The position numbers and the translations under genes are program-made. The notes beneath the pieces were generated by a model that saw only the letters and a list, made by a program, of their open reading frames with translations, was not told where the DNA came from and did not search any database. Shown here one piece after another: positions 342 to 16,444 of a DNA stretch of 64,000 nucleotides. This DNA comes from Salinigranum salinum. GTDB taxonomy: Archaea; Halobacteriota; Halobacteria; Halobacteriales; Haloferacaceae. Each line of letters opens with the position of its first letter. The first letter of the stretch is position 1. The stretch covers positions 1 through 64,000 of the forward strand of contig NZ_VTOJ01000002.1 in assembly GCF_009176545.1 (NCBI RefSeq). The letters run 5' to 3'.

Positions 342-724
342 CACTCATACTTCATACTCATATTCATACGCACAGTCGTAGCCGTGGCTCGGTCCCGTAC
401 GCACACGTACCACTCATACTGTAGATCCGAGCTCGGGTTCGGATTCGTGCGAGCTCCGGTCCGGAATGACACAGAGGTCGGAGAGAGGGATCACCGCACG
501 GCGCGAGAGTGGATCTCTCGGCGTGGGGGCGTGGCTGGACGTGGCACGCGGGCGGTGTTCGACGGCGGACGGGCCACTGTCGTCGTCGAACGCTGTCGCA
601 GGTGGCGGGCACGACAGCCGAACCGACTCTCGCGGCGACCACGTCGTTTACGGACGAAACACTCCCACCCGAAGAGGAACCTCTCCGATCGCCCGTGGCG
701 GCCCGACCCCGCGATTGGCCCATC
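342..724. other. Intergenic stretch after the rRNA operon, no gene seen
   Basis: About 380 bases without a convincing gene. It opens with short CATAC/CATATTC reiterations (about 345-370) just after 5S, where rRNA transcription should end. Open frames through it are non-acidic and arginine-rich, the usual look of non-coding frames in this GC-rich genome. Confidence 0.6.
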
Positions 725-731
725 TATTTAA
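725..731 (+). promoter_or_regulatory. TATA box of the adenylating ligase gene
   Basis: TATTTAA lies 23-29 nt before the ATG at 754, the spacing expected for a leaderless haloarchaeal transcript. This decides the ATG at 754 over the upstream in-frame ATG at 466. Confidence 0.7.
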
Positions 732-753
732 CGGACCTCCCAGTTCGAAGGGT

Positions 754-2418
754 ATGGACGGTAGCCCCGACACCGCAACTGCCGACATCGAAGGATACGT
801 GCCGTTCCCGGACGACCGGATTCGGCGGTACGTCGACGAGGGTCACTGGCGGGGGCTCACGTTCCACGCGGTCGTCGACCGGGTGGCCGACGAGAGCCCG
901 TCCCGCCGGGCGGTGATCGGACCGACGCGCGAGCTGAGCTACGGGGAGCTCGCCGCGAACTCCCGCCGACTCGCCGGTGCCTTTCGGGACGAACTCGGCT
1001 TGCGGACCGACGACCTCGTGACCCTCCAGTTGCCGAACTGTGTGGAGTTCGCCGAAGCCTTCCTCGCGTGTTCGCGGCTCGGCGTCGTCCCGGCGCTTGT
1101 CCTCCCGCGTCATCGTGAACAGGAACTGCGACACATCGTCGACCTCACCGAATCCCGGGCTGTCGTCACGGTCGGCGACCGCTACGACCTCGGATTCGAC
1201 TACGTGGACCTGGTGGACGGGATCGTCGACGACTACGACCACCTCGACGCACGGATCGCGATCACGGCCGACGAGAGCGAGCCACCGACCGGGTGGCACG
1301 ATCTGGCGGCCATGCGCGAACGTGGCGACGAGACAGTCGGGACGGACGTCAACCCCTGCAATCCCGGCTTGTTCATGCTCTCTGGCGGGACGAGTGGGCT
1401 CCCGAAAGCGATTCCACGGACCCACAACGACTACGTCTATCTCTGGGAGCACATCGCGACGGAGATGGGCGTCGACGCGGACTGGACGCTCGTCGCGGGG
1501 TTACCGGTGCCACACAGTTTCGCGTTCGGCTACGTGTTTGGTGCGGCGCTCTGGGCCGGCGCGACCGTCGCCGTCGAACCGAGGCTGAAGCCCGATCCGC
1601 TGATCGGGCTCGTCGACCGCGTCGACGGTGACGTCATCACGCTCATCCCGAAACAGCTCATCGACTTCCTCGAAGCGGGCGACGACGCGACGCTCTCGAC
1701 GCTCCGGGTGGTCTGTTCGGGCGGGCAGAAGGTGCCGCCGGACCTCGTTCGGCGCGTCGCCGACCGCTGGGGAGCGGGCTTCTGCAACGTCTTCGGGATG
1801 GGCGAGGGCGCGCAGGTCATCAGCCGGCCCGACGACCCGCTCGAGGTACAGGCGACGACCGTCGGGCGACCGATCGGCCCCGGCGACGAACTCCGGATCC
1901 TCGACGAGGAGGGGCAGCCAGTACCGCAGGGCGACCTGGGCGAACTCGTGGTCAGGGGTCCGGGCGTCTTCACCGGCTACCTCCGGAACGACGCGGCGAA
2001 CGAGAAGTCGTTCGACGACGAGGGGTGGTTCTACACCGGCGACGTCTTCTCACGCCGCGCCGACGGGAACCACGAGGTGTGGGGCCGGCTCGACGATACG
2101 ATCAACCGGGCCGGAGAGACGGTGTACGCGCCGGCCATCGAGGACGTGCTCGTCGAACATCCGAAGATCACCAAGGCCGCCGTCGTCGGGATTCCCGACG
2201 AGACGCTGGGCGAACGGATCGGCGCGGTCGTCGAACTCCGGGCCGGCGTCGACTCGCTCGCGCTCTCGGAGGTGACGGCGTTCTTCGAGGACCGCGGCCT
2301 CGCGGTCTTCCGCCGGCCCGAGCGGTTGCTCGTCGTCGAGACGCTCCCGGAGACGGACGTCGGCAAGATCGACCGGAACGCCGCCGAGGGGCTGTTCGAA
2401 CGGACGACCGCGGAGTGA
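754..2418 (+). CDS. EntE-like aryl/acyl adenylate-forming ligase
   Basis: A 554-aa member of the ANL superfamily, which activates a carboxylic acid with ATP to an acyl-AMP before thioester formation. Visible motifs are the P-loop LSGGTSGLPK (about 209-218) followed by PRTHNDY as in EntE/DhbE, FGMGEG, GWFYTGD, the hinge GRLDDTINRAGE and a C-terminal catalytic lysine in DVGKIDR. The known 2,3-dihydroxybenzoate ligases carry Asn in an AHNY motif that contacts the ring hydroxyl; here the motif reads PHSF, so the substrate is probably not dihydroxybenzoate or salicylate. No siderophore genes are nearby. It is transcribed away from the rRNA operon and converges on the luciferase-like gene. The start is set by the TATA box at 725-731. 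Family confident, substrate unknown. Confidence 0.88.
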   Translation: MDGSPDTATADIEGYVPFPDDRIRRYVDEGHWRGLTFHAVVDRVADESPSRRAVIGPTRELSYGELAANSRRLAGAFRDELGLRTDDLVTLQLPNCVEFAEAFLACSRLGVVPALVLPRHREQELRHIVDLTESRAVVTVGDRYDLGFDYVDLVDGIVDDYDHLDARIAITADESEPPTGWHDLAAMRERGDETVGTDVNPCNPGLFMLSGGTSGLPKAIPRTHNDYVYLWEHIATEMGVDADWTLVAGLPVPHSFAFGYVFGAALWAGATVAVEPRLKPDPLIGLVDRVDGDVITLIPKQLIDFLEAGDDATLSTLRVVCSGGQKVPPDLVRRVADRWGAGFCNVFGMGEGAQVISRPDDPLEVQATTVGRPIGPGDELRILDEEGQPVPQGDLGELVVRGPGVFTGYLRNDAANEKSFDDEGWFYTGDVFSRRADGNHEVWGRLDDTINRAGETVYAPAIEDVLVEHPKITKAAVVGIPDETLGERIGAVVELRAGVDSLALSEVTAFFEDRGLAVFRRPERLLVVETLPETDVGKIDRNAAEGLFERTTAE

Positions 2419-2501
2419 GTCGACGGGCGGGAGGAGCCGACGAACGCGAGGAGGACGGTCACGACTGGCGCGACCAGCGCGACGGAACCGGGTCGGACCG
2501 T

Positions 2502-3503
2502 TCAGAACGTTTCGGGGGCGAGCGCCTCGACGTTGCGGAGTTTGACCTCTTCGGGCCCGTAGTTGTAGATGACCGGGCACTTGACGCCGGCGTCGACGTA
2601 CTCGCGGTAGCGGTCCCGGACGGTCTCGGGCGAGCCGACGGCGGCGACGGTGTTGAGGAACTCGCGGTCGACGATCTCCTTCATCGCCTCGTAGTCGTTG
2701 CTGCGCACGGCCTCGCGGAGCGCCTCGATGTCGTAGTCGATGCCGGCCCGGTTGACGAGCGGCTTGATGTGGTCGCTGCAGCAGTGCCACGCCGTGAACT
2801 CCAGGACGTCGCGGATCTGTTCGTCGACGCTCAGCTCCGACTCCTCGTCGACGACCGCCGTGGGGATGTTGAGTGCGAAGAGGAACTCGTCCGGGTCACG
2901 GTCGAACTTCTCCTCCAGCTGCTGGGTCCCCTCTTCGACGACGTCGGCGACGAACGGGACAGTCGCGTTGAACGGTAGCCATAGCCCGTCGAACTTCGCC
3001 GCGGCGAGTTCGCGCATCTTCGGGCCCATCCCCGCGAGATAGAGGGGAACGTCGTCGTGAAACTCGCTGCGGAGCTTCCAGTTGTTCATCGTATAGATGT
3101 CGCCCTCGTAGTCGCACCGTCCCGTCTGGATGATCGACCGCAGGATGTCGTGCGTCTCGCTCATCCGCTTGATCGGGCGGTCGAGCGACTTCCCGAGCTT
3201 CTGGACGACCTCGGGAGCGCTCGTCGCGACGGCGAGCCCGCGCACACGACCGCCGGAGTAGTCGTCGACCGAACAGACCTCGGTCGCGATCATCGCCGGG
3301 TGACGTGTGTACGGGCTAGGCAGACCGACGACGATGTCGATGTCGATCCCCCAGGCACCGAGCGCCGTCGCGGTGGTGATCCCGTCTTTCGTGTCGATGA
3401 GCTCCTGCGTCCAGAAGGAGTCGTAGCCGAGTTCGGCGGCGAGTTCGGCCTGTGCTTTGATCTCTGTACCGGGACCGACGGTGTCCGAGACGGCGATCTT
3501 CAT
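2502..3503 (-). CDS. LLM-class (luciferase-like) F420-dependent oxidoreductase
   Basis: A 333-aa TIM-barrel flavin/F420 oxidoreductase. The N-terminus MKIAVSDTVG, then AAELGYDSFWTQEL, VGLPSPYTRHPAMIATE and the central LYLAGMGPKMRELAA are typical of luciferase-like proteins close to methylenetetrahydromethanopterin reductase (Mer-like). Haloarchaea make coenzyme F420, so F420 is the likeliest cofactor (inference). It lies 3' of the molybdenum hydroxylase on the same strand, about 97 bp apart, and converges with the ligase gene. Its upstream gap carries three 17-nt tandem repeats. The substrate is unknown. The context suggests a redox step in the same catabolic block. Confidence 0.85.
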   Translation of the reverse strand: MKIAVSDTVGPGTEIKAQAELAAELGYDSFWTQELIDTKDGITTATALGAWGIDIDIVVGLPSPYTRHPAMIATEVCSVDDYSGGRVRGLAVATSAPEVVQKLGKSLDRPIKRMSETHDILRSIIQTGRCDYEGDIYTMNNWKLRSEFHDDVPLYLAGMGPKMRELAAAKFDGLWLPFNATVPFVADVVEEGTQQLEEKFDRDPDEFLFALNIPTAVVDEESELSVDEQIRDVLEFTAWHCCSDHIKPLVNRAGIDYDIEALREAVRSNDYEAMKEIVDREFLNTVAAVGSPETVRDRYREYVDAGVKCPVIYNYGPEEVKLRNVEALAPETF

Positions 3504-3541
3504 CTGATGAACGTACCCTCTGACGGGTCGCTCAAAGCAGT

Positions 3542-3592
3542 ATCGGTCACGACGGCGAATCGGTTACGACGGCGAATCGGTCACAACGACGA
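3542..3592. repeat. Three tandem 17-nt repeats upstream of the LLM gene
   Basis: Units at 3542-3558, 3559-3575 and 3576-3592 share the form ATCGGTcACGACGGCGA. Unit 2 differs from unit 1 at one position; unit 3 diverges more. They fill the gap between the two minus-strand genes, 40-90 nt before the LLM start. Confidence 0.75.
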
Positions 3593-3599
3593 CCGAGAG

Positions 3600-6026
3600 T
3601 CAGTCGCTCGCCTGCTCGTCGTTCCGTGCGTCACGGATCGCCGACCAGATCGTCTCGCCCGTGAGCGGCGGCGTCAGGTCGCCCACGCCGAACGGTGATA
3701 GCGCGTCCTCGACGGCGTTGACCGTCGCCGCGAGCCCGCCGACAGCTCCCGACTCGCCGACGCCCTTGACGCCGAGGGGGTTGCGTGGCGACGGCGTCAC
3801 GGTGAACCCGGTCCGCATGTCCGGGACGTGGTGGGATTTGGGGACAGCGTAGTCCATGTGCGACCCGCTGACGAGCGTCCCGTTGTCGTCGAAGATCGCC
3901 CCCTCGAACAGCGCCTGTCCGATCCCCTGTGCGGTCCCGCCGTGGACCTGTCCCTCGACGATCTTCGGGTTGATCTGGACGCCACAGTCGTCGACAGAGA
4001 CGAAGTCCTCGAACGTCACCTCCCCCGTCGAGGGGTCGACCTCGACGACCGCGATCTGGACGCCGAACGGGAACGAGTAGTCGTCGGGGTCGAAGTACGA
4101 CGTCGCCTCCAGGCCGGCGTCGACTCCGTCGGGGAGGTCGTAGCCGACGTTGGCCGTCGCCGCCACCTCCTGGATGGTGAGCGAGCGATCGGGTGCGCCG
4201 CTGACGAAGAACGCGCCGCGCTCGAACTCGACGTCCTCAACGGCGGCCTCGAGCCGGTGGGCCGCGATCCGCCGCCCCTTCTCGACGACCTTCTCTGCGC
4301 TCTCGCCGATGGAGCCACCCGCGGTGATCGCACACCGACTGGCGAACGTGCCGACGCCCTCCCTCACTCTGGTGGTGTCGTCCTCGACGACCTCGATCTC
4401 CTCGATCGGCACGCCGAGTTTCTCGGAGACCACCTGCGCGTACGTCGTCTCGTGGCCCTGGCCGTGGTTCGAGGTGCCGACGAAAACGGTGACGCCGCCG
4501 TCGCGGTGACACTGGAGGTTGCTGTACTCCCAGGAGGCGACGTTGCCGCCGCAGCCGAAGCCACACTTCTCGATCCACGCGCCGATGCCGATGCCGAGGT
4601 AGCGTCCTTGCTCCCGCAACTGTGCTTGCCGCTCGCGGAGGTCGTCGTACCCCACGAGTTCGAGCGCCTCGTCGAGCGCCGGCTCGTAGTCGCCGCTGTC
4701 GTACGAGCCGCCGGCGGCGGTCTCGTACGGGAACTGGTCGGGCGGGACGAAGTTCTTCCTTCGAATCTCCGCGGGATCGATCCCGGTCGCGGCCGCGGCT
4801 CTGTCGACCAGTCGTTCCAGCGTGTGGATCAGCTCGGTCTCGATGACGCCACGGTACGCGTCGGAGGGGGTCGCGTTCGTCATCACGCCGCGGACGTGGT
4901 AGTGGACCGCCGGGAGGTCGTACTGGCCCGTCATCACGTTCAGACAGGTGATGGCGATCCCCGGGGCGAACGCGGAGAGGTACGCCCCCATGTCGTCGAC
5001 GAGGTCGACGCGGAGCCCGAGGAAGGAGCCATCGTCGTCGACCGCGAGCGTCCCCTCCGTCGTGACGCCGCGACCCTGCACGTCGCTCGCGTAGTTCCCC
5101 GTCCGGGTTCCCTGCCAGCGTACCGGGCGTTCGAGATGCATCGCGATCCAGGCGATGAGCGCCTCCTCGGGGTAGGGGACGCACCGGCTGCCGAACCCGC
5201 CGCCCATCTCCGGCGCGATCACGTCGATCTTCGACTCGGGGTAGCCGAGCGTCGCCGCGAGATCCCGGCGGAGTTTGTGGGGGATCTGCGTCGTGCTCTT
5301 GAGGCTCAGCCAGCCGGTCCCGGGGTCGAAGTCGGCGATAGCACCCCGTGGTTCGATGGGGTTCTGGACGATGCGCTGGTTGCCGATCTCGACCGAAACG
5401 GTGTGGGCCGCGTCCGCGAACACATCGTCCATCGCCTCGTGGTCGTCGTACTCCCACTCGAAGGCGACGTTGTCGGGCGTCCCCTCGTGGAGCGTCACGT
5501 CGCCGGCGAGCGATTCCTCGACGGTGACGGCCGTGTCGAGCCGTTCGTAGGAGACGTCGACCTCCCTGACGGCGTCGCGGGCGACGTAACGGTCCTCGGC
5601 GACGACGACCGCGATCGGCTCGCCCTGGTGACGGACGACGCCGTCGGCGATGACGGGACGGTTGAGGTGTTCGGCGGTCGTGATCCCTGGACCGGGGATG
5701 ATCGGCAGGCGAGTCGGCGTGGGGAGGTCGCTCTCGGCCATCGTCTCCGCGGTGACGACCGCGACGACGCCGTCGATCGCCTCGGCGGCGGTGACGTCGA
5801 TGGATTCGATCCGAGCATGGGCGTGCTGGCTCCGGACGACCGCCATGTGCCCCGCGCCGGCGACTGGCAGGTCGTCCGTGTACCGGGCCGCTCCCGTGAT
5901 CAGCCGCCGGTCCTCGACGCGCCTGACGCTGGCACCGACAGCACTGCCCGTCGACGCCTCGCCCGCCGCCGAGTCACCCGTCTGTTCCGTCTCCGACTCC
6001 GCGGGTGTGACCCCGTCCGTACTCAT
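3600..6026 (-). CDS. Molybdopterin-binding (xanthine dehydrogenase/CoxL family) large subunit
   Basis: An 808-aa large subunit of the molybdenum hydroxylase family, which hydroxylates aldehydes, CO or N-heterocycles at a Mo-cytosine-dinucleotide centre. The a/b hammerhead domain occupies about 35-170. The cofactor region shows GGGFGSR (about 275-281), and the catalytic Glu lies in GVKGVGESGAVGG (about 755). The site that reads AYRGAGR in form II CoxL-type proteins is AYRGVIETE (390-398), and no CoxL cysteine loop is present, so it is not a classical CO dehydrogenase. The medium FAD and small 2Fe-2S subunits are absent from the window. The start at 6026 is chosen over an upstream in-frame start because of the TATA box at 6051-6057. 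It sits downstream of hyuA on the same strand but has its own promoter. Confidence 0.85.
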   Translation of the reverse strand: MSTDGVTPAESETEQTGDSAAGEASTGSAVGASVRRVEDRRLITGAARYTDDLPVAGAGHMAVVRSQHAHARIESIDVTAAEAIDGVVAVVTAETMAESDLPTPTRLPIIPGPGITTAEHLNRPVIADGVVRHQGEPIAVVVAEDRYVARDAVREVDVSYERLDTAVTVEESLAGDVTLHEGTPDNVAFEWEYDDHEAMDDVFADAAHTVSVEIGNQRIVQNPIEPRGAIADFDPGTGWLSLKSTTQIPHKLRRDLAATLGYPESKIDVIAPEMGGGFGSRCVPYPEEALIAWIAMHLERPVRWQGTRTGNYASDVQGRGVTTEGTLAVDDDGSFLGLRVDLVDDMGAYLSAFAPGIAITCLNVMTGQYDLPAVHYHVRGVMTNATPSDAYRGVIETELIHTLERLVDRAAAATGIDPAEIRRKNFVPPDQFPYETAAGGSYDSGDYEPALDEALELVGYDDLRERQAQLREQGRYLGIGIGAWIEKCGFGCGGNVASWEYSNLQCHRDGGVTVFVGTSNHGQGHETTYAQVVSEKLGVPIEEIEVVEDDTTRVREGVGTFASRCAITAGGSIGESAEKVVEKGRRIAAHRLEAAVEDVEFERGAFFVSGAPDRSLTIQEVAATANVGYDLPDGVDAGLEATSYFDPDDYSFPFGVQIAVVEVDPSTGEVTFEDFVSVDDCGVQINPKIVEGQVHGGTAQGIGQALFEGAIFDDNGTLVSGSHMDYAVPKSHHVPDMRTGFTVTPSPRNPLGVKGVGESGAVGGLAATVNAVEDALSPFGVGDLTPPLTGETIWSAIRDARNDEQASD

Positions 6027-6057
6027 TGCGTTACGCAAACGGCAGGGGGTGTAATAA
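6026..6057 (-). promoter_or_regulatory. Promoter and start-site palindrome of the molybdenum hydroxylase gene
   Basis: Read on the minus strand, TTATTAC (6051-6057) lies about 28 nt before the ATG. A TTGCG-N3-CGCAA inverted repeat (6026-6038) sits directly on the start codon and expected transcription start, a good position for a repressor site. The TATA box is strong evidence; operator function is inferred. Confidence 0.55.
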
Positions 6058-6220
6058 CGGTGTGTGCTCACGTCCCATGGTCGCGCGGGACGGGTACTCG
6101 CCACCGTACGGGACGTCTACTCACTAGTAGCATGGGACCTCCACTCACTACCGCACGAGAGCGCGTCGAACCGCGACCTCGGGTCGTGGTCGTGACCGTT
6201 CGCCGGTCACCGCGGGCGTC

Positions 6221-8245
6221 TCATCGCTCGACGAGGACCGATCCGTCGTCGGCGACCGTCGCGGTCGCGTCGGGCGGTAACAGGGCGGTGTTCCCCCTGT
6301 CCTCGATGATCCCCGGTCCGTCGACGGACGCACCCGGCGAGAGCGCCGGACGCCACCAGATCGCGGCGGGTTCGTAGCCGGTCGCCTCGAAGTACACCTC
6401 CCGTTCGCCGCGGCGGGCCTCGCCCGCGTCGCGGTCGGGGCGGTCCGCGAGGGGCGGGGTCGGCACCCGCCCGGTCACCCGGAGCGTGACGACCTCGACG
6501 CTCTCGTCGGGCATCGCGTAGCCGTAGAGCCGCTCGTGGGCGTCGTGAAAGGCCGCGACCGCGTCGTCGAGCGCCTCGTCGTCGAGCGTGCCCGCGGCCG
6601 GCACCGTCAGTTCGTACGACTGGCCGACGTACCGCACGTCGACCGCGCGTTCGAGGGCGACCTCCTCGGCCGCGAACCCCATCTCGGCGAAGCGGTCCGC
6701 CTGCACCGCTTCGAGGTCCGCGAACCCCTCCTCCATCGTGTCCGGATCGAGCCGCTGGCCACGGAACGCCCGTGACTCGTCGGCGCGCACGTCGGCCAGG
6801 AGGAGGCCACGTGCCGAGAGCACGCCGGCGTTCCGGGGCAGGATGACCGTGTCGATGTCCATCTGCGCCGCGACCGCCGGTGCCTGCATGGGGCCGGCTC
6901 CGCCGAACGCGAGGAGGGCGAACTCCGTCGGGTCGCGCCCCCGCTCGACCGTCACCCGTCGGATCTCGCGGGCCATCTTCGCGTTCGCGACCTTGAGGAC
7001 GTCGAGCGCGGCGGATTCGACCGAGACGCCGAGCGGATCGGCGATGGCTTCGGTGAAGCGTTCGCGCGTCCGGTCGACGACGGGGTCCATGTCGCCCGTG
7101 ACGAACGCCTCGGGCGTCAGTCGTCCGAGGACGAGGTTCGCGTCCGTGACCGTCGGCTCGGTCCCGCCGCGTCCGTAACAGATCGGGCCGGGGTCCGCAC
7201 CCGCACTCCGCGGGCCGACGCGGAGGCCACCGGCGCTGTCGAGCCACGCGATGGAGCCGCCGCCGGCACCGACCGTGTTGATGTCGATGAGCGGCGTCTT
7301 GATCGGGAGGTCGTTGATTTCGCCCTCGGTCGAGCGGACGAGTTCGCCGTTCTCGACGATGCTCACGTCGGCGCTCGTCCCGCCCATGTCGAGCCCGATC
7401 GCGTTGGGGTAGCCGAGTTCCGCGCTCACGGAGCTGGCCGCGACGGCCCCCGCGGCCGGCCCCGAGAGGACCGTCCGGAGCGCGAACTGGGTCGCCTGTC
7501 CCGGGCTGAAGATGCCGCCGCCGGAGTGCATCACGTTCAGCGGCACGTCGATCCCCCGCTCTTCGATCCCGCCGCCGAGCCGATCGAGGTAGTCGGCGAT
7601 ATTCCGTTTCACCGCCTCGTTCAGCACCGTCGTCACGGTCCGGTCGTACTCGCGCGTCTCGGGGTACACCGCGGAGGAGAGGGCGTACTCGAGGTCCGTC
7701 CGCTCCTCGATGAGGTCGCCGACGCGCCGCTCGTGGTCGTCGTTGAGGTACGAGAACAGCATCGAGACGACGATCGACTCCGCGCCGGCGTCGACGAGGT
7801 CGTCGATCGCCGCCCGCGCGGCCGCCTCGTCGAGCGGGTCGACCACCTCGCCGTCGTGACCGATGCGCCCGGGGACGCCGAGGCGTCGCCGCCGCGGGAC
7901 GAGCGCAGGTGGTTTCTCCTGCTGGAGGTCGTAGAGCTTCGGACGCGTCTGGTCGCCGATCTCGAGCACGTCCTGCAGCCCCTCGTTGGTGAGCAGTCCG
8001 ATCGGCGGGATGTCGCCCTCGAGGACGGCGTTGGTGCCGACCGTCGTCCCGTGGCTCAGGAACTCGACGGCCGCGGGGTCGGTGTCGGTCTCGGCGAGGA
8101 TCTTCTCGATCCCGGTCAGGACGCCCCGGTCGAAGTCGGGCGGCGTCGACGGCGTCTTGGTCGTGTGGATCGTGCCCGACTCGTCGTCGTACAGGACCAC
8201 GTCGGTGAACGTCCCGCCGGTGTCGACGCCGATCCGGACGGTCAT
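6221..8245 (-). CDS. hyuA: Hydantoinase/oxoprolinase family subunit A
   Basis: A 674-aa protein of the HyuA family, the ATP-binding half of N-methylhydantoinase, 5-oxoprolinase, acetone carboxylase and acetophenone carboxylase type enzymes. The phosphate-binding GVDTGGTFTDVV is at 6-17. The second acetate-kinase-like motif LDMGGTSADVS is near 297 and GAGGGSIAW near 332. It overlaps hyuB by 4 nt (8242-8245), so the two are translationally coupled and very likely form one complex. No small carboxylase subunits are present, which favours an amide or lactam hydrolase over a carboxylase (inference). Substrate not determinable. Confidence 0.9.
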   Translation of the reverse strand: MTVRIGVDTGGTFTDVVLYDDESGTIHTTKTPSTPPDFDRGVLTGIEKILAETDTDPAAVEFLSHGTTVGTNAVLEGDIPPIGLLTNEGLQDVLEIGDQTRPKLYDLQQEKPPALVPRRRRLGVPGRIGHDGEVVDPLDEAAARAAIDDLVDAGAESIVVSMLFSYLNDDHERRVGDLIEERTDLEYALSSAVYPETREYDRTVTTVLNEAVKRNIADYLDRLGGGIEERGIDVPLNVMHSGGGIFSPGQATQFALRTVLSGPAAGAVAASSVSAELGYPNAIGLDMGGTSADVSIVENGELVRSTEGEINDLPIKTPLIDINTVGAGGGSIAWLDSAGGLRVGPRSAGADPGPICYGRGGTEPTVTDANLVLGRLTPEAFVTGDMDPVVDRTRERFTEAIADPLGVSVESAALDVLKVANAKMAREIRRVTVERGRDPTEFALLAFGGAGPMQAPAVAAQMDIDTVILPRNAGVLSARGLLLADVRADESRAFRGQRLDPDTMEEGFADLEAVQADRFAEMGFAAEEVALERAVDVRYVGQSYELTVPAAGTLDDEALDDAVAAFHDAHERLYGYAMPDESVEVVTLRVTGRVPTPPLADRPDRDAGEARRGEREVYFEATGYEPAAIWWRPALSPGASVDGPGIIEDRGNTALLPPDATATVADDGSVLVER

Positions 8246-10053
8246 CGGTCACCCCCGGCGACCGGGGCGTCGGTGTCGCCCGCGTCTGCACGGTCGCCGT
8301 CGTGGTCGTCACGATCGTCGCCGCCGTCCGTCCGCGCGTCGCCTCGAATCGCCTCCCGACGCTCCCGGGTCGCCGCCGCGTCGAGGTCGCCGTCGTCGAG
8401 GACGACCCCGTAGACGTCGCGGGCCTTCGCCGCGGAGACCTTCCCGTCGCGGACGTCTTCGACGACGGCGTCGGGTGCTCGTTCGAGAGGGTCGCCGTAG
8501 CCGCCACCGCCCGGCGTCTGCACGCTCACGATCTCGCCGGGGTCGAGCGCGGTCGTCGACTTGGAGGCGAGCACCGTCTCCTCGTCGGTTCCCGGATTGC
8601 GCAAAAAGCGTGAGGCCCTGGCCGCGTGCCCGCCGAACAGCCCCCACGGGGCCGACCGGGTCCGGTCGGTGAGTAGCGAGAACGTCGCGTCCTCACCGTA
8701 GAACTCGTAGTCGCGCCGCACGCCGAGGCCGCCGCGCTGTCGACCCGCACCCTCCGAATCCCGGACGAGTTCGTACCGGCGGACGTACACCGGAATCTCC
8801 GACTCCAGTTCCTCGATCGGGCTGTTGGCCGTGTTCTGGAAGTGCGTCTGGACGGCGTCCATGCCGTCCTTCTCGGCGCGTGCCCCGTAGCCGCCGGCGA
8901 CCGTCTCGTAGTAGACGTACTTCTCGTCGTCGCGGGGATCACGCCCGCCGTAGGCGATGTTGCAGACGATCCCCTTCGTCGCGGCGATCGTCTCCTCGGG
9001 CACCGCGTCGGCGAGGGCCTTCGTCACGAGGTCGCCCGCCCGCATCGCGATCTCCCACCCACCGGCGACGGGCGCGTCGTCGGCCGGGTTGACCATCGTC
9101 CCCTCCGGCGTGATCGTCTCCAGCGGGCGGTAGAAGCCGTCGTTCTTCGGGAGGTCGCCGCCGATGAACGCCATCACGACCGACATCGCGCCGGCGAACG
9201 CCATCGCCGGTGTGCAGTTGAGCGGGCCACGGTTCTGCCCGGCGGTCCCCGTGAAGTCGAGCGTGATCTCGTCGCCGTCGACCTCGATCGCCAGTTCGAG
9301 CCGGACGGGATCGTCGGTGAGGCCGTCGCCGTCCATCTCGTCCGTGGCGACGTAGGTGCCGTCCGGGAGGTCGGTGATGGCCGCCCGGACGCGTCGCTCC
9401 GTGTAGTCCAGCAGGGCATCGAGGTTCTCGTTCACCGTGTCGAGCCCGTACCGGTCGCAGAGCTCGGTGAACCGTTCCTCGCCGATCCGGTTCGCGCCCA
9501 GTTGCGCCTGGTAATCGCCCCGGCGCATCTCGGGTTCGCGGACGTTTCGGAGGAGAAACGAGAGCACCCGGTCGTCGTACGCCCAGTCGGAGACGGCGTG
9601 GATCCCGGGGATGACGACTCCCTCGGCGTACAGCTCGGTCGAGTCGTTCGGGATGCCGCCGGGAGTCCCCCCGCCGATGTCGACGTGGTGGGCCGAGTTG
9701 GCCGCGTAGCCGACGATCTCGTCCTTGAAGAACAGCGGCGAGATGAGCATCACGTCCGGCAGGTGGACCGCGCCCTTGTACGGGTCGTTGATCAGGATGC
9801 CGTCGCCGGGTTCGAGGTCGCGTTCGAGCGCCCTGACGTTCCGCGGGACGACGGAGACGAGCGAGCCGATGTGCTGCGGTGCGAGGTCGTGCTGAGCCAC
9901 GTGCCGGAGCCGGGAGTCGAACAGCGCACACGTGTGATCGCGCCGGATCTTGATGTTGGTCGAGTACGCCGTCCGCTGGAGCGTGACGCCCATCTCCTCG
10001 ACCACGCTCTTCAGCGAGTGCCGGAAGATCTCCAGTTCGCCCGTTGAAACCAT
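8242..10053 (-). CDS. hyuB: Hydantoinase/oxoprolinase family subunit B
   Basis: A 603-aa HyuB-family subunit. It shows the typical N-terminus (EIFRHSLKSVVEEMG), a DHTCALFD motif near 40, GDGILINDPYKGAVHLPDV near 85-105, and HVDIGGGTPGG near 123. The C-terminus has VQTPGGGGYGDP, the conserved end of the core domain, followed by about 80 residues rich in Asp and Arg. It is the first gene of the hyuBA pair, with a TATA box 26 nt before the start. HyuB normally pairs with HyuA for ATP-driven ring opening or carboxylation, and the order B then A with a 4-nt overlap supports this. Confidence 0.9.
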   Translation of the reverse strand: MVSTGELEIFRHSLKSVVEEMGVTLQRTAYSTNIKIRRDHTCALFDSRLRHVAQHDLAPQHIGSLVSVVPRNVRALERDLEPGDGILINDPYKGAVHLPDVMLISPLFFKDEIVGYAANSAHHVDIGGGTPGGIPNDSTELYAEGVVIPGIHAVSDWAYDDRVLSFLLRNVREPEMRRGDYQAQLGANRIGEERFTELCDRYGLDTVNENLDALLDYTERRVRAAITDLPDGTYVATDEMDGDGLTDDPVRLELAIEVDGDEITLDFTGTAGQNRGPLNCTPAMAFAGAMSVVMAFIGGDLPKNDGFYRPLETITPEGTMVNPADDAPVAGGWEIAMRAGDLVTKALADAVPEETIAATKGIVCNIAYGGRDPRDDEKYVYYETVAGGYGARAEKDGMDAVQTHFQNTANSPIEELESEIPVYVRRYELVRDSEGAGRQRGGLGVRRDYEFYGEDATFSLLTDRTRSAPWGLFGGHAARASRFLRNPGTDEETVLASKSTTALDPGEIVSVQTPGGGGYGDPLERAPDAVVEDVRDGKVSAAKARDVYGVVLDDGDLDAAATRERREAIRGDARTDGGDDRDDHDGDRADAGDTDAPVAGGDR

Positions 10054-10072
10054 ACCTCCGGTGCAGAGGCCG

Positions 10073-10082
10073 ATATGATAAA
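10073..10082 (-). promoter_or_regulatory. TATA box of hyuBA
   Basis: On the minus strand TTTATCATAT is centred about 26 nt before the hyuB ATG at 10053, the leaderless spacing. It gives the hyu pair its own promoter, separate from the E1/lipoyl operon upstream. Confidence 0.65.
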
Positions 10083-10149
10083 CGTGTGGGAGTGGACGGG
10101 AACTCTCGGGATCGGCGAGGACTCGGAGGACGCGACCGTGCGAGACTCG

Positions 10150-10437
10150 CTACCCCGGCTGGATCCAGCCCAGCGTCTCGTTCTGCCCGCAGACGTCCCC
10201 CTCGGCGACGACGATGTCGACGAGGGTTCCGGCCACCGGTGTGGGGACGTCGACGCTGACCTTCTCGATCTGGATCTCACAGACCGTCTCGCCCGCGTCG
10301 AGCGACCGGCCCTCGCGGGCGAACCAGTTGACGACGTACCCCTCCTCGACGTCGGCGGCGTCCGCTGGCCACACCGCCCCCGTCTCGATCGGGACGCGGT
10401 CGTCGTCGCCCGCGCTCGCCTTTTCGTCCCCACTCAT
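10150..10437 (-). CDS. Free-standing lipoyl-domain protein
   Basis: A 95-aa protein that is only a lipoyl (biotinyl/lipoyl attachment) domain. The hairpin lysine lies in EIQIEKVSVDVPTP (Lys59), which fits the ExDK-type lipoyl site and not the biotin AMKM site. Flanking half-domain motifs are NWFAREGRSLDAGETV and VAGTLVDIVVAEGDVC. It is the last gene of an E1 alpha, E1 beta, lipoyl operon, and its ATG overlaps the E1 beta stop (TGATG). It lacks the peripheral-subunit-binding and acyltransferase domains of a normal E2. As I recall, unattached lipoyl domains next to E1 genes are known in haloarchaeal 2-oxoacid dehydrogenase operons; which acyltransferase it serves is open. Confidence 0.85.
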   Translation of the reverse strand: MSGDEKASAGDDDRVPIETGAVWPADAADVEEGYVVNWFAREGRSLDAGETVCEIQIEKVSVDVPTPVAGTLVDIVVAEGDVCGQNETLGWIQPG

Positions 10438-11456
10438 CACTGCGTCGCCCGGACGGCGGCTTCGATGTCGGCGACGTCCGGGTTGACCTCCTGTTCGAGG
10501 GGTCGAGCGTACGGGATCGGTACATCGGGGACCGCCACCCGCTCGACGGCGCGGAGGCTGTCGAGCGCGCCCTCTGCGGCCTGGGCGACGATCTCGCCGG
10601 TGACGCCGAACGAGCGGTAGTCCTCGTCGACGACGACGAGCCGGCCCGTCTTCTGCACCGACTCGACGACGGTGTCGGTGTCCAGCGGCGTCAGCGTCCG
10701 GAGGTCGATCACCTCCACGTCGGCCTCGCCCACGAGGTTCTCGGCCGCCTCGAGCGCCCGGTGGACGTGCAGTCCCAGGGTGACGACGGTGGCGTCTTCG
10801 CCGGTGCGCTTGACGTCCGCCTCGCCGAACGGGATCAGGTAGTCGTCCTCGGGGACGCCCGTCTTCGGTCCAGAGGGTGCGGGCATCCAGCCGAGCCCCT
10901 GCAGACGCTTGTGGAACATGTAGACGACGGGGTCGTCGTCGCGGATGGCGTTGTGCATCAGCCCCTTGGCGTCGTACGCCGTCGAAGGGACCACGACCTT
11001 CATCCCGGGGAGGTGGGCGAACGTACCGTACAGCGTCTGGGAGTGCTGGGCCGCGTCGTTGTACGTCCCGCCGACGGCGGTCATGAGCACCATCGGCACG
11101 GAGAAACTCCCACCTGACATGTAGGTGTTCTTCGCCATCTGGTTGTAGATCTGGTCCATCGCGACGCCGAAGAAGTCGACGAACATCAGCTCGACGATCG
11201 GGCGCATCCCCGACTGGGCCGCGCCGACGCCCGCCCCGATGAACGCCGTCTCCGAGATAGGGACGTCCATGACGCGGTCGCGGCCGAACTCCTCCAGGAG
11301 GCCCTGTGTGCTGTCGAAGATGCCGCCGTAGTCGGCGACGTCCTCGCCCATGACGAACACGTCGTCGCTCGCACGCATCTCCGACGCGATCGCCTCGACC
11401 GCTGCCCGGCTCATGGTGAGTTCGCGGTCCGACTCGCGGTCGACGCCGGTGCTCAT
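10437..11456 (-). CDS. 2-oxoacid/acetoin dehydrogenase-type E1 beta subunit
   Basis: A 339-aa TPP-dependent dehydrogenase beta subunit. Typical stretches are VFVMGEDVADYGGIF, DVPISETAFIGAGVGAA, ELMFVDFFGVAMDQIYNQ, a C-terminal transketolase domain with EVIDLRTLTPLDTDTV, and VVDEDYRSFGVTGEI. It forms an alpha2-beta2 heterotetramer with E1 alpha, whose stop overlaps this start by 4 nt, and is followed directly by the lipoyl gene. The long N-terminal match to AcoB-type proteins suggests an acetoin-like or small 2-oxoacid substrate, but branched-chain oxoacids cannot be excluded. Confidence 0.9.
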   Translation of the reverse strand: MSTGVDRESDRELTMSRAAVEAIASEMRASDDVFVMGEDVADYGGIFDSTQGLLEEFGRDRVMDVPISETAFIGAGVGAAQSGMRPIVELMFVDFFGVAMDQIYNQMAKNTYMSGGSFSVPMVLMTAVGGTYNDAAQHSQTLYGTFAHLPGMKVVVPSTAYDAKGLMHNAIRDDDPVVYMFHKRLQGLGWMPAPSGPKTGVPEDDYLIPFGEADVKRTGEDATVVTLGLHVHRALEAAENLVGEADVEVIDLRTLTPLDTDTVVESVQKTGRLVVVDEDYRSFGVTGEIVAQAAEGALDSLRAVERVAVPDVPIPYARPLEQEVNPDVADIEAAVRATQ

Positions 11457-12472
11457 CGGCCGTCACCCCCCTCGACCGCCCCCGACAGCGAGTTCGTGAA
11501 CACGTCCTCGTACGCCTCGGACGGGTCGGGTTCGGGCTGGTCTTTCGCCCACGCGATGGCGTCGTCGACGCGTTCCTCCGTGGTCTCCCGGATCGACGCG
11601 AGGTCGTCGTCGGTCACGCCGTGGTCGCGGAGCGTCGCGGCGAGTCGCTCGATCGAGTCGCGCGCTTTGTGGGCCGCGACGTCCTCGTCGGGACGGTACG
11701 CCTCCGCGTCGCCCATGAAGTGACCCATCCGTCGGTGAACCTGGATATCGAGCAGCGTAGGACCGTTACCGTCGCGGGCGCGCATCACGGCCTCCTCGGC
11801 GGCCTCGTAGACGGCGACCGCGTCGTCGTGGTCGACGCGAACCCCGGGGAGGTCGAAGCCGCCGGCGCGCTCTGCGGAGTTCTCGACGTCGGTCACCCGC
11901 TCGATGGGCATCGAGATGGCCCAGTCGTTGTCCTCGACGACGAAGACGACGGGGAGGTCGTGGACCGCGGCGAGGTTGAGCGACTCGAAGAAGCCGCCCT
12001 GGTCGACCGCGCCCTCTCCCAAGAAGGCGACGGCGACGCTGTCCGTGTTGCGCTTCTTCGCCGCCATCGCCGCCCCGACCGCTGGGGGACAGCCCTCGGC
12101 GATGATGCCCGAGCAGGCGAAGTTCACGTCCGGGTCGAACAGGTGCATATGGCCGCCCTTCCCCTTCGAGAGCCCCGTCGCTCGGCCGAAGATCTCGGCG
12201 GTCATCCGCTTCAGGTCGACCCCCTTCGCGATGGCGATGTGATGCGGGCGGTGTGGTGCCGTGACGGTGTCGTCGTCGCGGAGGTGCGCACACACCCCCG
12301 CACCGGACGCCTCGTGGCCCGCGGCGAGGTGGAGCTCACCCGGGATCGGCCCCGCGCTGATGTCGAACGCCGGCTGTTTCCCCTCGAGGTACTCCTCCTG
12401 GAGGCGCTCTTCGTAGTAGCGCGCGGTCACCATGTCGTCGTACATCGATCGTAATATGTTAGCACTGACCAT
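11453..12472 (-). CDS. 2-oxoacid/acetoin dehydrogenase-type E1 alpha subunit
   Basis: A 339-aa E1 alpha subunit that decarboxylates or cleaves the substrate on thiamine diphosphate. The TPP motif runs from GEG (152-154) to the Asn in VVEDND (about 182). HRPHHIAIAKGVD and GKGGHMHLFD are characteristic of AcoA/PdhA-type proteins, and the RMGHFMGD loop is present. An upstream in-frame ATG at 12499 is excluded because it lies inside the TATA box; the ATG at 12472 fits a leaderless start. First gene of the E1 alpha, E1 beta, lipoyl operon, with a perfect palindrome between TATA box and start. Confidence 0.9.
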   Translation of the reverse strand: MVSANILRSMYDDMVTARYYEERLQEEYLEGKQPAFDISAGPIPGELHLAAGHEASGAGVCAHLRDDDTVTAPHRPHHIAIAKGVDLKRMTAEIFGRATGLSKGKGGHMHLFDPDVNFACSGIIAEGCPPAVGAAMAAKKRNTDSVAVAFLGEGAVDQGGFFESLNLAAVHDLPVVFVVEDNDWAISMPIERVTDVENSAERAGGFDLPGVRVDHDDAVAVYEAAEEAVMRARDGNGPTLLDIQVHRRMGHFMGDAEAYRPDEDVAAHKARDSIERLAATLRDHGVTDDDLASIRETTEERVDDAIAWAKDQPEPDPSEAYEDVFTNSLSGAVEGGDGR

Positions 12473-12481
12473 TGCCGGGGT

Positions 12482-12506
12482 ATGTTTCGCAAACATCATA
12501 AATAAG
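12482..12506 (-). promoter_or_regulatory. Promoter with perfect palindrome before the E1 operon
   Basis: ATGTTT-CGC-AAACAT (12482-12496) is a perfect inverted repeat with 6-bp arms. It lies between a TTATTTATG TATA box (12498-12506, minus strand) and the start codon at 12472, so a bound dimer would block initiation. The promoter is well supported. The identity of the regulator is unknown. Confidence 0.7.
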
Positions 12507-12796
12507 CGTTGACGTGGGTGGTGTCCGACCGGCTCTCGTCGTCGACCGGTGGGAACGGCGAGTCAGTTCGACTACCCTCTCTGCCCGACGCGCGCCTTCA
12601 CGACGGACGACGAACGGCCGCGAGCAGGGGCGGTCGTTCCCTCACTCGTCGCCACGAGCGCCGCGGTGTCGGTCAGGTAGCGCAGGGCGAGACGGGCAGC
12701 TTCACCAGCGACCAGTACAGTGCGAGGCGTCGGCGCAGCACGGCTCGCCGGGTGTCACGTGATGGGTGTGTCGTCGAGGCTTCCGGTGGGACCTCG
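12507..12796. other. Gap between the halocyanin 3' end and the E1 promoter
   Basis: Nearly 300 bases with no credible gene. Open frames here are arginine-rich and lack acidic bias. I see no hairpin or repeat worth calling apart from the E1 promoter at its left edge. Confidence 0.5.
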
Positions 12797-13429
12797 TCAC
12801 TCGACGACGACCGCGCCCTTCATACCGAGGGCCCTGTGGGGCTGACAGTAGTACGTGTACGCCCCGCTCTCCTCGAAGGTGTGCGAGAAGGTGTGTCCCT
12901 CGTCGGTCGTCAGTTCGCTCTCGAAGGAGCCGTCCTCGGCGACGACGTTGTGCGACCCGCCCAAGCCGTTCCACTTCCACGTCACTTCGGTTCCGGCCGA
13001 GACGCGGACCGCAGCCGGGTCGAACGCGAGGTTGCCGCCGTTGCCGTCAGCCCCGACGGTCACGGTTACGCTGCCACGTCCGGTCTCGTCGACCACACCG
13101 GAGAAGTTGCCCACGTCGGACAGGTACCCCGACACCTCACCGGGGGTTGTCCCGGACTCGCCGGAGTCCGATCCGTCTGCGTCGGAACCGTCGTCTGCGT
13201 CGGAACCGTCGTCGGAGCCAGACCCGGAGCCACCGTCCGAGTCCGCGGGCGTGCCGGTCGGGGTCACGGTCTCGTGGGCGGTAGAGCCGCTCGATCCACC
13301 GGAACCCGAACCCGAACCGTCGCCCGTGTCACCCTCTCCGGCGCTGCCGGCACAGCCGGCGAGCGACGCGAGTCCGAGCGTGGCCAGGCCAACCGTCCGG
13401 AGCGTGTCGCGTCTGGTGAGGTCGGTCAT
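12797..13429 (-). CDS. Halocyanin-like copper protein (Tat lipoprotein)
   Basis: A 210-aa blue copper protein of the plastocyanin/halocyanin family, an electron carrier on the outer face of the membrane. RRDTLRTVGLATLGLASLAG followed by Cys is a twin-arginine lipoprotein signal with an LAGC lipobox. A Gly/Ser/Asp/Thr-rich linker of about 85 residues leads to a C-terminal copper domain. The ligands are visible as His in GGSHNVV, Cys and His in YYCQPHRALG, and Met in GMKG. The ATG at 13429 is taken, dropping a GTG one codon earlier. It is a single gene, divergent from cinA. Function confident, redox partner unknown. Confidence 0.92.
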   Translation of the reverse strand: MTDLTRRDTLRTVGLATLGLASLAGCAGSAGEGDTGDGSGSGSGGSSGSTAHETVTPTGTPADSDGGSGSGSDDGSDADDGSDADGSDSGESGTTPGEVSGYLSDVGNFSGVVDETGRGSVTVTVGADGNGGNLAFDPAAVRVSAGTEVTWKWNGLGGSHNVVAEDGSFESELTTDEGHTFSHTFEESGAYTYYCQPHRALGMKGAVVVE

Positions 13430-13822
13430 CACGTTCGAAGCTACGACCCCTCTTCACTCCGTAGTTTTGGACGAACCGGTTCGGGTGACGTTCCAGCGAG
13501 CGGGAATCGGTCGGGCAGGTCCCAAACACGTTCGGGTGTCGGCGATCGCGGGCGTGGTCGGCTGGTGACCCCGACGGCACCATCGAACGCGTTCTCGTGT
13601 GCCGACGGGCGTCGACTCGGACGGCGGTTCCGTGCGACCACGGACTCACCCCCCTCTCGACGACGGTGTCGATCGCTGTCGACGTTCGGGGCACACGTGG
13701 CGCGGGGCTCGACACACACCGCCTGTGGCTGTTCGACCCATCACCGGGTGCCTCAGTCGAAGCGTGACGACACCCTGAGGGTCGTCGCCGGATTGAAGCG
13801 ACGACCGCCCGGAGCTACCGCC
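13430..13822. other. Divergent intergenic region, halocyanin / cinA
   Basis: About 390 bases holding the promoters of two divergent genes but no gene. The only structure I trust is a perfect 7-bp inverted repeat, GTCGTCG (13781-13787) with CGACGAC (13799-13805) around an 11-nt loop, ending 17 nt before the cinA start. TATA boxes here are weak. Confidence 0.5.
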
Positions 13823-14344
13823 ATGACCGACACCCCAGTCGAGGCCCGCGTCGGCGACGCCCTGCGAGCCCGCGGTCAGACGGTCGCGGTCGCGGAGTCG
13901 CTCACCGGCGGCCTCGTCGGTTCACGACTCACGGACGTGCCCAGGTCGAGCGACTACTTCGACCGCGCGGTCGTGACGTACTCGAACGACGCCAAACTGG
14001 AGGAACTCGCGGTGTCGCGGGAGTCGCTCGACGCACACGGTGCCGTCTCGGCACCCGTCGCCCGCGAGATGGCGGGGGGCGTGCGAGACACCGCCGGGAC
14101 GACCTGGGGCGTCTCGACCACCGGCATCGCCGGGCCGACGGGCGGCACTGCGCAAAAACCGGTCGGACTGGTCTTCGTCGGCGTCGCCTACGCCGCACCG
14201 TGGGGCTCCGACGACTCGTTCACGCGCGCGGAGCGGTACGTCCTCGACGGTGGCCGCGACGCCGTCAAGGAGGAAAGCGCGACGCGGGCGCTCTCGGATC
14301 TGCTGGCGGCGGTCGAAGCGGTCGCGGACGCGAGCAGCGAGTGA
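13823..14344 (+). CDS. CinA C-terminal domain protein (nicotinamide-nucleotide amidase, PncC-type)
   Basis: A 173-aa stand-alone CinA C-terminal domain, the family that deamidates NMN to nicotinate mononucleotide in pyridine nucleotide salvage. Diagnostic motifs are VAVAESLTGGLVGSRLTD (about 20-37), VVTYSNDAKLEELAVS, HGAVSAPVAREMAGG, TTGIAGPTGGT and KPVGLVFVGV. The ATG at 13823 gives the usual length of this single-domain form; a longer open frame upstream lacks homology. It is followed convergently by the universal stress protein gene with a 33-bp gap. Confidence 0.9.
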   Translation: MTDTPVEARVGDALRARGQTVAVAESLTGGLVGSRLTDVPRSSDYFDRAVVTYSNDAKLEELAVSRESLDAHGAVSAPVAREMAGGVRDTAGTTWGVSTTGIAGPTGGTAQKPVGLVFVGVAYAAPWGSDDSFTRAERYVLDGGRDAVKEESATRALSDLLAAVEAVADASSE

Positions 14345-14377
14345 GCGACGCGACTCGCACCGGTCGTCGCTCGCGAC

Positions 14378-15013
14378 TCAGTTCGTCGGAGCCGTGACGA
14401 CGTGCGGGTCGCCCGTCGCGCGGTCGACGTACACCGTCACGTGCCGACTCTGGACTGTGCCCTCGAACACCCACGTCCCCTGTTCGCGGTACGCGCCCGG
14501 ATCGAGGTCGACCGTCTCCGCGTCACACTCCGCGAGTACGGCCTCGTGGGCGACGTCACGCGCCGCCGCTTCGGTGGTGACGGCGTCGGCGTCGGCGTGG
14601 AATCCGACCGTCAGGACCGGCACCCCGACGGATCGGACCACGCGCTCCGTGACGCTCCCGAGCAGGCGTCGTTCGAGTCCCGTCCGGCCGCGCGTGCCCA
14701 TGACGACGAGGTCGATACCGGCGTCGTCGACGTACCGCTGGATCTCCCGGGCGGGTTCGCCCCAGGCGAGATCGCCGACGACCGGTACGTCCGCCCTGGC
14801 CGCTCGCTCGCGGACCGTTCCGAGGGCACGCGCTCCCCGTGCCGTGAGTTCGTCCTCGACGTCCTCGCCGCCCACGATGGGACTCCCGCCACCGTCGACG
14901 ACCGACAGCGCGTGGAGCGTCGCGTCGTACCGCCCAGCGAGGTCGACCGCGTGTCTGATCGCGCGCTCGGCGCCCGGACTGCCGTCCGTCGGGAGGAGGA
15001 TCCTGTCGTACAT
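14378..15013 (-). CDS. Universal stress protein with C-terminal extension
   Basis: A 211-aa protein. Residues 1-140 are a UspA domain: start MYDRILLPTDGSPGAERAI, nucleotide-binding signature GTRGRTGLERRLLGSVTERVV, end VGVPVLTV. The last 70 residues form an extra segment (GTWVFEGTVQSRHVTVYVDR) that is absent from ordinary single-domain Usp proteins. It looks like a small beta-rich domain of unknown role. A decayed paralog of the Usp part lies at 16680-16918. Family sure, function of the tail unknown. Confidence 0.88.
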   Translation of the reverse strand: MYDRILLPTDGSPGAERAIRHAVDLAGRYDATLHALSVVDGGGSPIVGGEDVEDELTARGARALGTVRERAARADVPVVGDLAWGEPAREIQRYVDDAGIDLVVMGTRGRTGLERRLLGSVTERVVRSVGVPVLTVGFHADADAVTTEAAARDVAHEAVLAECDAETVDLDPGAYREQGTWVFEGTVQSRHVTVYVDRATGDPHVVTAPTN

Positions 15014-15132
15014 CGTCGTTCACCGCCTCCGACTACGACGCGGCCGGGGGAATAACCGGCACGCGATTCCAGTGTGGTGAGAACGCTCGATCCGGTCCGA
15101 CCCGGCGATCGCGCGACAGCGGCGGCGACCGC

Positions 15133-16323: not shown

Positions 16324-16444
16324 TACCCACCCGTCTCCGATCCTCGGACTAAAGGGGTCCCGTTCGACGGCGTATTGCCACGCCGTGACGTGACACGCAC
16401 CGCGGATTGCGGCACATCTCATCCTGACACGCCTGGCCTGGCTC

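Follow-up and report, generated by a model that had tools for sequence, protein, structure and literature searches.

Several described systems resemble parts of the locus considered here. The caprolactamase CapAB and N-methylhydantoinase are two-subunit enzymes with ATP motifs in the HyuA subunit and an Asp-His-Asp-His site in HyuB, and the operon for anaerobic indoleacetate degradation (iaa) combines a CoA ligase with a Hyu-type lactamase. CoxL-type molybdenum hydroxylases include CO dehydrogenase, quinoline 2-oxidoreductase and glyceraldehyde oxidoreductase; F420-dependent LLM enzymes and Mer belong to the luciferase family; and split 2-oxoacid dehydrogenase modules carry genes for E1alpha, E1beta, a lipoyl protein and E2 in that order. 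Relatives of all of these lie in a block of eight genes of Salinigranum salinum (class Halobacteria; genome of 4.69 Mb), within the first 64 kb of contig C2 (NZ_VTOJ01000002.1), the stretch of 64,000 nucleotides hereafter called the window. Every enzyme family in the block is known, while the combination is rare and only partly conserved.

The block consists of three units and is probably not one pathway: unit A, an acyl-AMP ligase, an LLM-class oxidoreductase and a CoxL-like hydroxylase; unit B, HyuB and HyuA; and unit C, E1alpha, E1beta and a stand-alone lipoyl-domain protein. With confidence that stands at about an even level, we propose that units A and B, together with a Liv importer and an MDR dehydrogenase, make up a single accessory cluster for the catabolism of a carboxylic acid that is aromatic and most likely nitrogen-heterocyclic, and that unit C is separate. 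Seven minus-strand redox and hydrolase genes and a converging plus-strand ligase had been listed by a first-pass annotation of the DNA; all eight are confirmed as open reading frames, with Pfam matches above the curated cut-offs in every case. The comparison of neighbourhoods that had been suggested as a check of their functional unity found one conserved core (unit A) and two modules, HyuAB and E1-lipoyl, in unrelated contexts.

The ligase, LLM and CoxL core

Unit A comprises an aryl-acid AMP/CoA ligase (754..2418, plus strand; Pfam AMP-binding, 223.6 bits), which converges on a Mer-like, probably F420-dependent oxidoreductase of the LLM class (2502..3503, minus strand; Bac_luciferase), and a CoxL-like molybdenum hydroxylase catalytic subunit (3600..6029, minus strand; MoCoBD_1/2 and hammerhead domains), with the LLM gene 96 bases behind CoxL. 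The three genes are neighbours, in corresponding order and orientation, in three genomes that represent two lineages: that of the window, the congener G323, and the Haloarculaceae metagenome-assembled genome (G391) that contains locus L013. The gene order of G323 runs LeuRS, Liv importer, MDR dehydrogenase, ligase, LLM, CoxL and then directly CinA, and that of L013 is HyuB, HyuA, CoxL, LLM, ligase, MDR. The MDR gene thus adjoins the ligase in both; its window counterpart, a zinc-type enzyme (ADH_N and ADH_zinc_N), is found at 21872..22933 on the plus strand. CoxL at an identity of at least 74% was seen only in the window's own genome, G323 and L013 (next match 54%). For the ligase, matches of at least ~65% identity were seen in G000, G323 and L013 only, and the next one down is 56%. 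LLM was found in 3 of 391 genomes of the class (E<=1e-60), namely the window's genome, G323 and, from another family, G086; G391 lies outside this sample. A third congener, G350, had no LLM, ligase or HyuB match at the search thresholds used.

This conservation bears on whether the block is a chance juxtaposition, a hotspot beside an rRNA operon that gathers accessory genes without a common function. A 5S rRNA gene (221-342, plus strand) stands at the very start of the contig, so that the block is directly beside the end of an rRNA operon, and rRNA operon ends are frequent contig break points. The locus also shows an inversion and a 7.8 kb indel, and HyuAB, E1 and LLM are found in other contexts as well. 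Chance is nevertheless an unlikely explanation when two lineages, with three genomes between them, have kept ligase, LLM and CoxL in the same order and orientation, and two of these genomes also have MDR next to the ligase.

The closest PDB relatives of the ligase are DHB-AMP and salicylate-AMP ligases, which are aryl-AMP ligases. Homologs at 51-56% identity were present in twelve other genomes of the class, and five of the twelve neighbourhoods (L163-L167) were examined. Aromatic-pathway genes named by family models lie near the ligase homolog in three of the five: UbiD and UbiX above subfamily cut-offs in L163, a salicylyl-CoA 5-hydroxylase-like gene below the cut-off in L166, and PaaA/PaaC-like genes, likewise below the cut-off, in L167; L164 and L165 are like L163 and L166 by sequence start only. 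In contrast to these haloarchaeal aromatic-acid CoA ligases, the window ligase has no recognised aromatic oxygenase or UbiD beside it. A sodium-solute symporter, recognised by sequence start, was also seen in the haloarchaeal aromatic-acid clusters of L163-L167.

For LLM the best PDB relatives are F420-dependent Mer proteins. LLM differs from the F420-dependent LLM/Mer family in its rarity and in falling below the cut-off of every NCBIfam model among the 21 listed (best TIGR04024, 146.6 versus 345.4). On a plasmid of Natrinema gelatinilyticum the LLM ortholog adjoins a CofH gene that passes NF005609, and in G086 LLM has cofG and a cofH-like gene as neighbours (L019 13840-16523), with a second cofH-like match elsewhere and a weaker cofG-like match near it. 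This context points to a probable use of F420 by LLM, as predicted also from the similarity to Mer. The excerpted text of PMC8498797 describes hydride transfer to the picrate ring by an F420-dependent LLM-type enzyme, and ring reduction would therefore be possible for the window LLM.

Ring reduction also has a place in a nicotinate-like degradation of a pyridine carboxylate, in which CoxL would be a nicotinate-type hydroxylase, LLM would stand in for hydroxynicotinate reductase and HyuAB for enamidase, and MDR would be the alcohol dehydrogenase. The model for that step order is the nicotinate pathway of Eubacterium barkeri; the families in the window fit its sequence of hydroxylation, reduction, ring opening and dehydrogenation, and the picrate precedent is in keeping with the second step. 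However, that pathway has no specific homolog among these genes, and the best PDB relatives of CoxL are CO dehydrogenase and quinoline 2-oxidoreductase, with nicotinate dehydrogenase distant, which makes a nicotinate-like route unlikely.

CoxL carries molybdenum cofactor-binding domains, an AYRG loop and a GVGE catalytic motif, a domain set, loop and motif in common with CoxL-type molybdenum hydroxylases of the xanthine-oxidase family. Form I CO dehydrogenase has the Cu-binding loop AYRCSFR, and this identity was rejected on the AYRG reading. Where the window-type CoxL departs from the described enzymes is in having no adjacent iron-sulfur (FeS) or FAD subunit in three genomes: CoxS or CoxM matches were absent from the window, L017/L018 (G323), L013 and L049-L051 (G391), and the three haloarchaeal CoxL paralogs (50-51%) whose annotation was read are all in S-L-M operons. 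Of the seven CoxS genes of the own genome, six share a cluster with a CoxL, and the seventh belongs to a CoxS-CoxM pair that lacks one (C2 2,012,778-2,014,238; L085 7178-8638), on the same contig as the CoxL of the block. The CoxS of this lone pair is 86% identical to a G323 CoxS that has a CoxL; the pair seems to be what is left of an S-L-M operon and might be the partner of the block's CoxL. Every CoxS found has a CoxL in G323 (6/6) and G391 (5/5), and a spare pair is therefore not general. The ratio of nonsynonymous to synonymous change (dN/dS, by NG86) for CoxL was 0.20 and 0.30 in two comparisons, which makes a dead remnant unlikely.

HyuAB and a candidate lactam step

Unit B encodes HyuB, the metal-binding hydrolase subunit (8242..10053, minus strand; 603 aa; Hydantoinase_B, 607.5 bits), and HyuA, the ATP-binding subunit (6221..8245, minus strand; 674 aa; Hydantoinase_A domains). 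Among PDB entries they are most closely related to N-methylhydantoinase (7hk5) and to 6yra, whose residue numbers suggest that it is CapAB. According to the excerpted text of PMC8453981, the ATP-dependent hydantoinase/lactamase branch is marked by DxGGTxTD, DxGGT and GxxPGP in HyuA and by Asp-His-Asp-His in HyuB. The window HyuA has the phosphate motifs DTGGTFTD at 8 and DMGGT ending at 290 and the adenosine motif GADPGP (PGP at 352), and Asp39, His97, Asp100 and His122 of HyuB align with the CapB metal ligands (alignment to 6yra_B). There are two subunits only, without gamma or alpha-prime, flanked by CoxL and the lipoyl protein; a ketone carboxylase was rejected on subunit number and size, following the criteria for two-subunit hydrolases and ketone carboxylases in the excerpted text of PMC5214803. 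Hence, motifs and two-subunit make-up fit an ATP-dependent cyclic-amide hydrolase. HyuAB is not a caprolactamase equivalog, with scores of 512.6 and 315.3 versus NCBIfam cut-offs of 1000, and it differs from CapAB and N-methylhydantoinase in its gene order, HyuB-HyuA, and its neighbours, CoxL, LLM and ligase.

HyuBA adjoins CoxL in the window and in one other lineage (L013). The presence together of ligase, CoxL and HyuAB raises the possibility of iaa-type indole-3-acetate degradation, with a CoA ligase, molybdenum hydroxylation to an oxindole, and HyuAB as the 2-oxoindoleacetyl-CoA lactamase. In the excerpted texts of PMC5214803 and PMC8360864, iaa operons encode a CoA ligase along with a Hyu lactamase of two subunits, an archaeal case included, but neither LLM nor MDR is mentioned. 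Moreover, unlike the iaa operon, the window genes scanned (part of the open reading frames) include no counterpart of IaaF, IaaL or IaaGH, whether acyl-CoA dehydrogenase, CoA-transferase or mutase, and we consider an iaa-type pathway quite improbable.

The reading that we prefer joins units A and B. HyuAB and a molybdenum hydroxylase beside a CoA ligase suggest a nitrogen heterocycle, because hydroxylation next to a ring nitrogen gives a lactam of the sort that HyuAB-type enzymes can open. A Liv-type importer would bring in the aromatic acid, which the ligase would activate to its CoA ester. CoxL, with FeS and FAD partners taken from elsewhere in the genome, might hydroxylate the carbon next to the ring nitrogen to yield a pyridone- or oxindole-like lactam, and LLM could reduce a ring double bond with F420H2. 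HyuA would then phosphorylate the lactam for hydrolysis by HyuB, and MDR would oxidise or reduce the opened chain, while the E1alpha-E1beta-lipoyl unit would have ended up next to the cluster in this strain. The substrate candidates that can be named are indoleacetate and nicotinate-like acids.

Several observations weigh against a joint function of units A and B, or against its details. The core is absent from nine of the ten other HyuAB loci examined, and only L013 has CoxL, LLM and ligase alongside (HyuB at 72-82%; L008-L013, L056 (= L169), L168, L170 and L171, with flanks of about 4-15 kb). Conversely, HyuAB of this clade is missing from G323, although the core is retained there; the best full-length HyuB match in that genome is 37%, in addition to a two-piece copy at 43-52%. 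HyuAB may therefore be dispensable for the reaction of the core. LLM orthologs (72-74%) in G086 and on the Natrinema gelatinilyticum plasmid belong to a different cluster, which lacks the ligase and this CoxL and holds a Liv importer and DAO, OCD-like, thiamine pyrophosphate (TPP) enzyme and aldehyde-dehydrogenase genes. The nearest Liv set in the genome of L013 (68-75%) is ~19 kb from MDR, on the same contig and not adjacent. None of the eight genes reached an NCBIfam equivalog among the matches listed (for the ligase, the best 25 of 104). Finally, G391 holds an E1 module too, on another contig, although this says little because E1 is in about a third of genomes. We have held our confidence in the preferred reading to about the midpoint because G323 keeps the core without this HyuAB. 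The earlier supposition that the genes together degrade a nitrogen heterocycle or amide thus stands in part: ligase, LLM, CoxL and HyuAB recur in the unrelated lineage of L013, with HyuAB motifs that fit cyclic-amide hydrolases, and the HyuAB loci without the core speak against it.

HyuB was found in 12 of 391 genomes of the class, the own genome included (E<=1e-200); the neighbourhoods described here are those other than in the HyuB-clade genomes G061, G043, G362 and G382. At other loci, genes for an NAD-dependent SDR, an aldehyde dehydrogenase, an aminotransferase and a TPP enzyme resembling acetolactate synthase lie near HyuAB, as judged from annotation or sequence start. A different LLM-like gene stands upstream of HyuB at L011 (by sequence start), and Liv-type importers are near at L010 and L170. 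The surroundings of L013 were also considered as the same pathway as the LLM cluster of G086 and Natrinema, and this was rejected, the TPP, DAO, OCD and aldehyde-dehydrogenase genes being only 29-37% alike.

A more ambitious proposal would be an undescribed haloarchaeal route, aerobic and CoA-dependent, for N-heteroaromatic acids, with molybdenum hydroxylation, ring reduction by an F420H2-dependent LLM and ATP-dependent lactam opening by HyuAB, the molybdenum partners being encoded elsewhere and E1-lipoyl lacking a dedicated E2. Among the literature matches listed, no description of this gene set was found, and we regard so complete a proposal as unlikely. If true, there would be F420-dependent ring reduction in an aerobic archaeon, alongside actinobacterial picrate reduction as catabolic hydride transfer to a ring by LLM, and haloarchaea would gain a route into N-heterocyclic acids. 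The orphan CoxL and the E2-less E1-lipoyl modules are two oddities, which may borrow their partners or do without any. In addition, the comparison of neighbourhoods redraws the boundaries of the block and so directs growth and knock-out tests to the right genes.

The E1alpha-E1beta-lipoyl module

Unit C, all on the minus strand, consists of E1alpha (11453..12472, or 12499; E1_dh, 228.8 bits), E1beta of the 2-oxoacid/acetoin dehydrogenase type (10437..11456; Transket_pyr and Transketolase_C) and a stand-alone lipoyl-domain protein (10150..10440; Biotin_lipoyl; 96 aa from GTG 10440, 95 aa from ATG 10437). E1beta passes the NCBIfam subfamily NF006667 (329.6 versus 321) and is 79-83% identical to nine other haloarchaeal copies; E1alpha is 73-82% identical to copies in 10 haloarchaeal plasmid records and in three genomes, where one of the three places coincides with a record. 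The lipoyl protein has the lipoyl-lysine motif EIQIEK, and its homologs directly follow E1beta at other loci. The module is common: E1alpha of this clade was found in 126 of 391 genomes of the class (E<=1e-130), and at that threshold neither of the LLM carriers G323 and G086 has it.

The first-pass annotation had placed the E1 module in the same pathway, as the acceptor of the carbonyl product of heterocycle degradation. In favour of all eight genes forming one pathway are their shared strand and tight spacing, and the single present/absent segment that runs from HyuA to halocyanin in comparison with G323. Additionally, genes for HyuAB, an aldehyde dehydrogenase, a TPP enzyme and E1-E1-lipoyl-E2 lie within ~11 kb on a plasmid of the bacterium Paracoccus seriniphilus (L058), branched-chain-type ABC transporter genes are near two Halobaculum E1 loci, and of the 12 class genomes that carry this HyuB clade, 6 have E1alpha. 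This last figure, however, is a small excess over 120 of 379 other genomes, and in the other five genomes with both, HyuB and E1alpha are on different contigs or >300 kb apart. HyuB and E1alpha each have a TATA-like run of their own, and HyuAB, CoxL, LLM and ligase were near none of the 11 other E1-lipoyl loci opened (tblastn at nine; annotation at L053 and L061). With HyuBA and the E1-lipoyl module each occurring apart from the rest, and E1alpha in 126 genomes versus three for LLM, we have downgraded the one-pathway explanation, which now appears improbable, and the placement of E1 within it is not supported.

We opened 12 haloarchaeal loci (the window, L045, L046, L047, L052, L053, L061 and L133-L137; record H10 and the remaining E1alpha genomes fall outside this set), and E1alpha, E1beta and the lipoyl protein were present at all 12, in the order of the split 2-oxoacid dehydrogenase module. 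Where the window departs from that module is in E2: a small E2 catalytic gene follows at six loci (L052, L053, L061, L134, L136 and L137) and is absent from the other six, the window, L045, L046, L047, L133 and L135, with the L046 sequence stopping about 275 bases past the lipoyl gene. One E2 match was found elsewhere in the own genome (37%), and one each in G392 (35%), G395 (59%) and G391 (52%). The E2-less loci were considered as one clade, which found no support, since the tree mixes them, with low support, with E2-bearing loci. At each of the seven loci opened on bacterial plasmids (E1alpha 51-55%) an E2 gene is present, at some together with lipoyl synthase or lipoate ligase. Unit C would accordingly be a common, independently inherited front end of a 2-oxoacid or acyloin dehydrogenase, judging from its distribution and families. 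On the Rhodococcus opacus plasmid pR1CP1 (L055), E1alpha-E1beta-lipoyl-E2-LipA lies within about 10 kb of the tetramethylpyrazine oxygenase gene tpdB, which by analogy may hint at an acyloin-type substrate for the module. At L046, a short frame resembling a tyrosine recombinase by eye (6517-6690) directly follows the E1-lipoyl module at the contig end.

Importer, rearrangements and gene starts

The Liv genes begin at 23131, about 10.7 kb from the block, with a LivK-type substrate-binding protein (23131..24534, plus strand; 91% in G323), whose PDB relatives are weak and labelled branched-chain amino-acid binding proteins; permeases and ATPases follow on the same strand (24562-25449, 25446-26480, ~26477-27232 and 27318-28022). 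A link between this importer and the block had been suspected from the 11 kb distance, and the comparison with G323 bears it out: Liv, MDR, ligase, LLM and CoxL are directly contiguous there and are parted in the window, between importer and ligase, by an inverted segment of ~20.9 kb (724..21603, by blastn orientation). On the evidence of this one congener, sequence comparison indicates that the importer does belong with the ligase. Window positions 1-369, with the 5S rRNA gene, match G323 past the far end of the inverted part (blastn); the right junction (21603/21892) is inside the contig and the left is at the contig start. The inversion in the window genome is likely to be the derived state, because MDR adjoins the ligase in both G323 and L013.

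The second rearrangement is a 7.76 kb segment (6068..13824) that runs from HyuA to halocyanin and is replaced by ~121 bp in G323, with blastn matches collinear on both sides; no convincing repeats were seen by eye at this indel among the repeat families listed. Its last gene encodes halocyanin, a blue copper protein (12797..13432, minus strand; TIGR03102, 142.6 bits, cut-off 93.8).

Runs resembling a TATA box, with 6 or more A/T in 7 positions between about -38 and -20, precede four of the eight starts examined: ligase 754, CoxL 6029, HyuB 10053 and E1alpha 12472. None precedes HyuA, E1beta, lipoyl or LLM, and the background is 1.7% of sampled plus-strand positions. The earlier count of at least three TATA boxes is thus borne out, with one of the four runs, that of E1alpha, not independent, as that start was picked with the run in view; a match to the TATA consensus alone is no proof of a promoter. 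For E1alpha, 12472 is the most likely start, preferred over 12499 because of the run just upstream. The runs would imply as units E1alpha-E1beta-lipoyl, HyuB-HyuA, CoxL with LLM behind it, and the ligase on the opposite strand.

By NG86, dN was below dS in the core genes and at most 0.30 of dS in 11 of the 12 gene pairs compared, the short lipoyl gene being a weak case (0.40 versus 0.64). Further along the window, a 489-aa open frame (17196-18665, plus strand), with no Pfam match at 1e-6 and mostly without a blastn match in the G323 region, lies in a GC-poor dip (0.589 at 16-18 kb).

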